NCBI RefSeq assembly: GCF_030848395.1 | Contig: NZ_JAVDBT010000020.1 | Span: forward strand, 1-45,940 | Source: Pseudogemmobacter lacusdianii | Lineage (GTDB): Bacteria > Pseudomonadota > Alphaproteobacteria > Rhodobacterales > Rhodobacteraceae | DNA: 45,940 nucleotides | Direction of reading: 5' to 3' | Notes under the pieces: generated by a model | What the model was told of the DNA's origin: nothing | What the model saw: only the letters and a program-made list of their open reading frames with translations | Database searches by the model: none | Program-made: the position numbers and the translations under genes | In this document: one piece after another, positions 21,813-22,304 of the stretch | Layout: every line of letters begins with the position of its first letter | How positions within the stretch are numbered: the first letter of the stretch is position 1

Positions 21813-21850
21813 AAAAAAAAACCGCCGCACATCCAATGGGATGGCGGCGG
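21813..21850 (-). terminator. Rho-independent terminator of the 39-codon SOS-type gene
   Basis: On the minus strand CCGCCGC CATCC, loop, GGATG (one bulged base) GCGGCGG is followed by nine T residues (plus-strand A-run 21813-21821). It stands 110 bases beyond the stop codon of the small gene at 21961-22080 and ends its transcript before the converging IscU-like gene. Confidence 0.88.
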
Positions 21851-21960
21851 CAGTCGCGTGTCTGAGGCGCGCGAGGGGGGATGCGTCGAATCTCGGGACA
21901 GAGGGACGCAAGGCGCGCTTTGGGAACAGACCGCAGGCAGAAATCGTCAGGCGGTGCGCG

Positions 21961-22080
21961 TTATGCCGCGCCGGGCAAAGCAAGCGCTGCAAAGAGCATG
22001 AAGAACAAAGCCGCAATCCCCATGATGTCGCCGGCCAAGGTGGGCTCTGCTTGGGTCAAAGATTTAAGACGGGCGATCAT
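21961..22080 (-). CDS. 39-residue single-span membrane protein under a LexA-type operator
   Basis: A short gene with AGGAG seven bases before the ATG at 22078-22080, and its own terminator. The protein starts MIARLKSLTQAEPTLAGD (basic then acidic, likely cytoplasmic) and ends in one hydrophobic span IMGIAALFFMLFAALALPG. I recall similar small proteins in Rhodobacteraceae but know no function. Upstream, at 22139-22174, lie two back-to-back LexA-type boxes; TTTACA and AACAAT, 18 bases apart on the minus strand between operator and gene, may be the promoter. An SOS-induced inner-membrane microprotein, perhaps acting on cell division as SidA does in Caulobacter, is the best hypothesis; homology is not shown. 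Confidence 0.7.
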   Translation of the reverse strand: MIARLKSLTQAEPTLAGDIMGIAALFFMLFAALALPGAA

Positions 22081-22138
22081 TGCGGCTCTCCTGCTGTAAT
22101 GTTGCCCTATTGTTCTCATCTCATTAATCACCTGTAAA

Positions 22139-22174
22139 GAACTTTTTGAGAACATACGCGAACATCGCAGGAAC
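22139..22174. promoter_or_regulatory. Double LexA operator (two GAAC-N7-GAAC boxes)
   Basis: GAAC occurs at 22139, 22150, 22160 and 22171. The first pair is GAACTTTTTGAGAAC and the second GAACATCGCAGGAAC, both exact matches to the direct-repeat LexA box GAAC-N7-GAAC (GTTC-N7-GTTC on the other strand) known for Rhodobacter and Rhizobium relatives; six bases separate the two boxes. All four half-sites thus fall about one helical turn apart, on one face of the DNA. It sits between the 39-codon gene (minus) and the 25-codon ORF (plus) and could control both. Confidence 0.8.
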
Positions 22175-22226
22175 TAATGTGGTAATTTCCCGATAAGGTG
22201 TTGAGATGAAAAGGAGGTTTGCACCA

Positions 22227-22290
22227 ATGGCTTCCCCAGCGGGACCTGCCCGCTGGTACCGGAGTTGGGGACTTCTCGCGATCGAAGTGC

Positions 22291-22304
<14 letters not shown>
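22227..22304 (+). CDS. Possible 25-codon ORF with a perfect Shine-Dalgarno, divergent from the SOS-type gene
   Basis: The ATG at 22227 is preceded by AAAAGGAGG with nine bases between. It encodes MASPAGPARWYRSWG followed by [10 protein letters not shown], then TGA inside the end of recG (opposite strand). An in-frame ATG at 22206 would give 32 residues. The product is basic and aromatic without a membrane span. The coding start carries a perfect 8-bp hairpin at 22236-22256 (CCAGCGGG, loop ACCTG, CCCGCTGG). It could be a microprotein or a structured RNA; support comes only from the ribosome site and the adjacent operator. Confidence 0.4.

Follow-up and report, generated by a model that had tools for sequence, protein, structure and literature searches.

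Next to recG and ligA in the genome of Pseudogemmobacter lacusdianii lies a very short gene, preceded by repeats that resemble the LexA operator of alphaproteobacteria. An initial annotation, made from the letters of this DNA, took it for a DNA-damage-induced membrane microprotein. This raises the questions of whether gene and operator are real, whether they belong together, and what their common message may do in the cell. The window, i.e. the whole stretch of 45,940 nucleotides analysed here, forms contig 13 in a genome of 3.78 Mb; all positions refer to it unless a contig is named, and Rhodobacteraceae is understood throughout as the family in the genome-taxonomy sense.

A family-wide microprotein gene

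The gene adjoins recG and ligA, as described, and consists of the following parts:

21961..22080, minus strand: gene of a 39-residue single-span membrane microprotein with family-wide homologues
22087..22093, minus strand: its Shine-Dalgarno sequence CAGGAGA; similar tetramers are common among relatives

The 19-residue hydropathy of the protein peaks at 2.26, in a single hydrophobic span, and the message ends in a hairpin with a nine-T tail, so that the short membrane gene of the initial annotation is present in all its elements. The protein matches all 12 same-genus genomes that were searched with this single sequence. A profile built from 22 members (A1) matches 254 of 295 Rhodobacteraceae genomes at an E-value of 0.01 or better, whereas only three of 240 genomes of the class match at 0.001, all of them Rhodobacteraceae and one of them our own genome. 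The figure of 254 is a lower bound, since at least three of the profile misses carry divergent homologues: two lie behind recG (L316 in G035 and L317 in G119), and a third, in G187, was reached via the RNA described below. Sixteen of the 20 listed among the 41 profile misses also lack GTTC-N7-GTTCTTTAC.

For the comparison of loci, eight duplicates were taken out, and the ORF is present in 172 of the 176 loci then examined (all except L145, L157, L217 and L220). A Shine-Dalgarno-like tetramer, permissively defined, stands within the final 18 nt ahead of the start in 166 of the 172. In 152 of them, a search of three frames with a loose definition finds the C-terminal motif of recG up to 420 nt upstream of the gene. 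The codon counts omit 26 of the 172 loci because of length, start or N; ATG is the start codon in 145 of the 146 genes used. The protein is evidently under purifying selection: for 142 pairs that were picked by DNA identity alone (70-97%) and are not independent of each other, N/S is 0.142 in frame, whereas the two wrong frames give 1.90 and 3.35. This value replaces a first estimate of 0.086, which was biased downwards because its pairs had been picked by protein identity. Substitutions at codon positions 1, 2 and 3 number 1242, 700 and 2342, so that third-position changes dominate. Residues M1, K6, D18, G21, L29 and L33 are invariant in the profile. The 39-residue protein is thus well supported as real, both by its selection and by its homologues across the family. 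It fits no family in Pfam or NCBIfam, and we obtained no convincing match for it in PHROGs, PADLOC or the PDB sequences.

A LexA-type operator within an extended promoter

Upstream of the gene, four exact GAAC half-sites at 22139, 22150, 22160 and 22171 form two GAAC-N7-GAAC boxes (22139-22174), at the very positions given initially. Together with the neighbouring promoter elements, they are arranged as follows:

22139..22153, plus strand: promoter-proximal box of the LexA type, directly adjoining the -35-like TTTACA
22160..22174, plus strand: distal GAAC-N7-GAAC box, which reads GTTC-N7-GTTC on the minus strand and has an outer half-site that is weakly kept in relatives
22133..22138, minus strand: -35-like hexamer TTTACA; the consensus of 170 loci shows strong conservation of TTTAC
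22101..22115, minus strand: GAAC-N7-CAAC element in the presumed -10 to +1 region

The window holds two exact boxes where 1.10 are expected, and at least two occur in 31 of 100 shuffles; because two boxes in 46 kb fall within chance expectation, the case rests on conservation. The N7-N6-N7 order of the four half-sites occurs once in the window, counted on the plus strand. Among 59 loci that were reached through the protein and not through the operator, 58 have an exact box no more than 200 nt ahead of the ORF, i.e. protein and operator are conserved together in relatives; in the single exception, L127, one GTTC reads GATC. GTTC-N6-GTTC-N7-GTTC is found in 47 of these 59 loci, the full N7-N6-N7 form of the window in three. 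The double operator of the initial annotation is therefore present here, but two complete boxes are rare and do not represent the general form. The latter is GTTC-N6-GTTC-N7-GTTC abutting TTTAC, followed 27 nt on by the GAAC-N7-CAAC element: the promoter consensus reads GTTCnCaAATGTTCTcAaAAAGTTCTTTACA, then TGAGAACAAannGGCAACA, and in 155 of 170 loci, GAACAA starts 27 nt past the start of the second GTTC of a box.

This -10-region element is a poor match to sigma-70. Among the 58 loci with a box, it reads GAAC-N7-CAAC in 55 and is an exact GAAC-N7-GAAC box in one, which suggests that it may be a degenerate third LexA box over the -10 region. The loci L054 and L201 have an exact GAAC-N7-GAAC box at the -10 element. 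When the collection of named genomes was scanned for GTTC-N6-GTTC-N7-GTTCTTTAC, at least 117 stretches matched, with isolates of Ruegeria, Sulfitobacter and Celeribacter among those that carry the locus; among the matches listed, the microprotein starts 76-141 nt past the start of the operator in 113 of 117. The four listed stretches without the gene are L145 and L157, which are Bacteroidota records, L217, and L220, where the stretch ends early.

Is this motif a LexA box in this genome? The alphaproteobacterial LexA motif is a direct repeat with a spacing of N7, and an exact GTTC-N7-GTTC stands in the promoter here as well as in 58 of the 59 unselected loci. In our genome, one exact copy (C6:37276-37290) ends 36 bp ahead of the lexA match and another (C23:186423-186437) lies 94 bp ahead of the recA match. 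By this calibration, the motif is a LexA-type box here, in support of the LexA-type operator that had been proposed. GTTC/GAAC consensus groups have likewise been named for alphaproteobacterial LexA in an in silico study of D. shibae (PMC6473078). That study names lexA, recA, dprA, pde2 and others; its main text makes no mention of recG, and its supplementary tables may list the gene (PMC6473078).

The bare motif is not enriched genome-wide, with 59 exact matches against 244 for a reversed control pattern. Of the other sites in our genome, 52 of 57 lie inside a mechanical ORF of at least 100 aa; we rejected this as an argument, since the lexA and recA promoter sites also lie inside such ORFs and the count is uninformative. 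The same two GAAC-N7-GAAC sequences recur as a pair about 1.2 kb apart at C3:57315/58507 and at C14:10828/12019, which suggests a duplicated element.

One might argue from the lack of enrichment, and from a conserved promoter that exceeds one LexA box by a third half-site at N6 and the GAAC-N7-CAAC element, that another regulator recognizes the phased GTTC repeats and that the gene lies outside the SOS response. We regard this as very improbable, given that the core of the promoter is the alphaproteobacterial LexA motif and that lexA and recA of this genome are preceded by the same motif. From the promoter sequences, we infer that LexA would bind at the microprotein promoter and that DNA damage would induce the gene.

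The divergent ORF

On the other side of the operator, a divergent 25-codon ORF had been annotated:

22230..22304, plus strand: ORF of 24 residues with AAGGAGGT in front, unsupported as a gene

Both the ORF and its AAGGAGGT exist. The surrounding stretch yields no alignment with 12 same-genus relatives, only chance matches of 13-18 nt, and none of the 12 has a GGAGG-spaced ATG at this place. The peptide gives short scattered matches in 11 of the 12, with E-values of 0.025 or worse in a tiny database. With no counterpart among these relatives, the ORF is left without support as a gene, and we rejected it.

These comparisons also bear on the idea of a type I toxin-like module, with a TisB-like, membrane-depolarizing toxin under tight LexA control and a 3'UTR that regulates translation or stability in cis. 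TisB and DinQ are short single-span membrane peptides of E. coli that are linked to the SOS response, and our locus resembles them in its short, hydrophobic single-span protein and its SOS-type control, with several LexA-type half-sites and a structured message. It differs from them in its vertical, family-wide conservation and in that its divergent region, the only one in which we looked for a type I antitoxin, holds no partner conserved in the 12 genus relatives. Near-universal vertical inheritance is unlike most toxin modules, and here the gene is inherited behind recG almost universally, by the motif count given above. A toxin-like module thus seems quite unlikely to us.

A conserved structured RNA in the 3'UTR

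Downstream of the ORF lies a feature that is absent from the initial annotation. Comparative and folding analyses lend good support to a conserved and structured RNA in the 3'UTR, with the following predicted parts:

21815..21957, minus strand: conserved structured 3'UTR RNA with a closing stem and exposed C-rich motifs (128.2 bits with the covariance model R1)
21934..21940, minus strand: CTGCCTG motif, place checked, enriched in the UTRs of relatives
21895..21901, minus strand: CTGTCCC motif, place checked, likewise enriched
21813..21852, minus strand: intrinsic terminator hairpin with a nine-T tail (21813-21821)

The terminator hairpin is conserved, with changes on both sides among relatives; it is not among the calls of a consensus terminator scan of the window. 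A terminator-ended UTR was located in 157 of 172 loci (117-274 nt, median 176); the finder returned none for the other 15, which are left out of the UTR counts. The two C-rich motifs were picked by eye from the alignments. CTGTCCC occurs in 178 copies in 122 of the 157 UTRs (shuffle mean 5.2) and CTGCCTG in 200 copies in 132 (shuffle mean 5.8), i.e. both lie about 34-fold above shuffles, and in a ranking of all heptamers in the UTRs, CTGCCTG comes first and CTGTCCC third. In predicted folds, their mean unpaired probabilities are 0.78 for CTGTCCC and 0.70 for CTGCCTG, compared with 0.47 for other C-rich heptamers.

In 152 of 157 predicted folds, a closing stem of at least four pairs joins the CTGCC region to the segment before the terminator; among shuffles, 225 of 471 form such a stem. 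The average number of pairs is 16.3 in the UTRs and 5.4 in the shuffles. In an alignment of 13 genus members, three pairs of the outer stem are kept through changes on both sides, in 4, 5 and 6 sequences; as the changed sequences mostly belong to one group, they represent few independent events. An alignment of 26 family members recovers the terminator alone as consensus structure.

The covariance model R1 was built from the 13 genus UTR sequences, the window's locus included. Outside this training set, it finds 44 of 46 family loci with E-values below 0.01, at least three of the matches (L022, L046 and L117) spanning under 80 nt and covering mainly the terminator, and it misses L051 and L127. 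Under strict filters, R1 matches 198 of 295 family genomes and hits our own genome once; of nine strict matches that were fetched, seven have the operator and a short ORF of the microprotein type upstream. A weak match elsewhere in the window (9545-9609, plus strand; 14.4 bits, E 0.086) is probably due to chance. In Rfam, the region 21700-22500 of the window has no match at the gathering score, the best being BcKCsr2 with 12.5 bits against a gathering score of 40.

In some genomes, the parts occur separately. L051 (G062) keeps protein and operator, and the conserved RNA was not found there, which makes it a natural separation of the parts. L318 (G161) has an R1 match, with neither a protein match nor the operator pattern and with a single CTGCCTG seen, and G013, which has no protein match, has a weak R1 match. 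R1 detects no 3'UTR in L316 and L317, apart from one weak match of 26 nt in L316.

With these observations, the linkage of microprotein, operator and RNA and their conservation throughout the family are well supported at the sequence level. In an alternative interpretation, the microprotein would be the sole effector, a division inhibitor like SidA, and the 3'UTR would serve only to protect the message and to end it. The purifying selection on the protein fits this idea, as do G062, which keeps the protein without a detectable RNA, and SidA itself, a LexA-controlled inner-membrane division inhibitor of 29 residues (PMC4211646). Against it stand the C-rich motifs, which are conserved, predicted to be unpaired and often repeated within one UTR; this is more than stability alone would require, and we consider a purely protective 3'UTR unlikely. 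Instead, we read the locus as a LexA-controlled message that makes a microprotein and a candidate regulatory RNA.

ftsZ as a candidate target

If the RNA acts on other messages, ftsZ is a candidate. We picked it by analogy with DinR of Klebsiella, before inspecting any ftsZ sequence, and compared it in 57 of the 59 genomes (G160 has no ftsZ match, G031 no start). GGACAG, the complement of CUGUCC, lies at the ftsZ ribosome-binding site in 13 of 13 genus genomes and in 33 of the 57, compared with 5 of 272 control ORF starts; ACAGGC does so in 43 of the 57, compared with 2 of 272. GGGACA is found in only 4 of the 57, most genomes having C instead of G before GGACAG, so that six of the seven letters of CTGTCCC can pair. 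GGACAG is present at ftsZ in 33 of 49 genomes with CTGTCC in the RNA and in none of the eight without it (Fisher p 0.0004, a value that ignores ancestry); a comparison that takes the phylogeny into account was left with one pair on supported branches and hence had no power. The pairing GCCTGT x ACAGGC, which was picked after seeing the ftsZ sites, showed no association. Many Rhodobacteraceae ftsZ genes (loci L249-L345) have an unusual, ACAGGC-type ribosome-binding site.

In 14 genomes without the module, ACAGGC persists at ftsZ in eight and GGACAG in two. These 14 are drawn from the 20 listed of the 41 protein-match-negative genomes; G020 (no ftsZ), G065 (no start), G035 and G119 (divergent homologues), and G161 and G013 (RNA-model matches) were left out. 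The longest perfect match reaches 7 nt or more in 41 of 57 ftsZ sequences and in 72 of 243 controls. In a scan of duplex energies, the ftsZ ribosome-binding site did not stand out, as 138 to 439 of about 788 windows, and 150 of 494 in G011, were equally good. In our own genome, GGGACAG-N3-11-ATG occurs 46 times and the reversed pattern, a weak control, nine times, which makes other targets possible. Taken together, these sequence comparisons and the analogy with DinR are no more than suggestive of an RNA that regulates ftsZ by covering its ribosome-binding site.

Relation to known systems and a possible mechanism

The initial annotation had likened the gene to two SOS-induced proteins of Caulobacter, SidA and DidA. 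The comparison holds for SidA, an inner-membrane protein of C. crescentus that is described as acting on FtsW, but not for DidA, which is described as SOS-independent (PMC4211646). Like SidA, our gene encodes a very short, single-span inner-membrane protein behind a LexA-type operator in an alphaproteobacterium; unlike SidA, the protein has 39-40 residues and its message a conserved structured 3'UTR. By this analogy, the microprotein may inhibit division in the manner of SidA.

For the RNA, the closest counterpart is DinR, a LexA-controlled sRNA from the 3'UTR of Klebsiella dinI, which blocks ftsZ translation at the ribosome-binding site and whose pairing region is described as Klebsiella-specific (PMC10907235). 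Judged by sequence and predicted structure, our locus likewise has an RNA with its own terminator 3' of an ORF under LexA-type control, with ftsZ as a candidate target; it differs in its host gene and in that its RNA is found family-wide. Pos19 of a relative, Rhodobacter sphaeroides, is a small coding RNA whose short ORF is translated; it responds to oxidative stress and acts on RSP_0557 (PMC5036791). Unlike our locus, it is controlled by RpoE and has no link to SOS. Overall, the locus looks like the logics of SidA and DinR joined on one message.

We thus favor, with a probability of roughly 0.6, a LexA-repressed SOS gene of the Rhodobacteraceae whose short transcript has two jobs. LexA would bind to the phased direct repeats of GTTC that adjoin the -35 region, possibly to the degenerate box over the -10 as well, and keep the gene off until DNA damage removes LexA. 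The message would then encode an inner-membrane microprotein of roughly 40 residues and end in a structured 3'UTR, whose exposed CUGUCCC and CUGCCUG appear suited to pair with target messages, on which the RNA would act in trans. Protein and RNA would pause cell division during DNA repair, the protein in a SidA-like way and the RNA perhaps by masking the ribosome-binding site of ftsZ; both the action in trans and the pause are inferred. A more specific version, which we put forward as tentative and rather doubtful, is that one LexA-controlled dual-function RNA constitutes the SOS division checkpoint of the Rhodobacteraceae, with the 40-residue membrane protein acting on the late divisome and the 3'UTR RNA, in which CUGUCCC/CUGCCUG recur, silencing ftsZ translation. 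If true, this would be a two-level division arrest from one message.

Among the matches listed in our searches of the open-access literature, there was no report of the microprotein gene or the RNA, no SOS division inhibitor named for Rhodobacteraceae, and nothing relevant on CUGUCCC in connection with sRNA. The locus is a near-universal candidate for an SOS division inhibitor of the Rhodobacteraceae, outside the curated protein and RNA families searched, and since its expected inducer is clear, both the microprotein and the RNA are directly testable. If the two act together, the locus would join the known dual-function RNAs as their SOS counterpart, and a single message may convey two signals when DNA is damaged.
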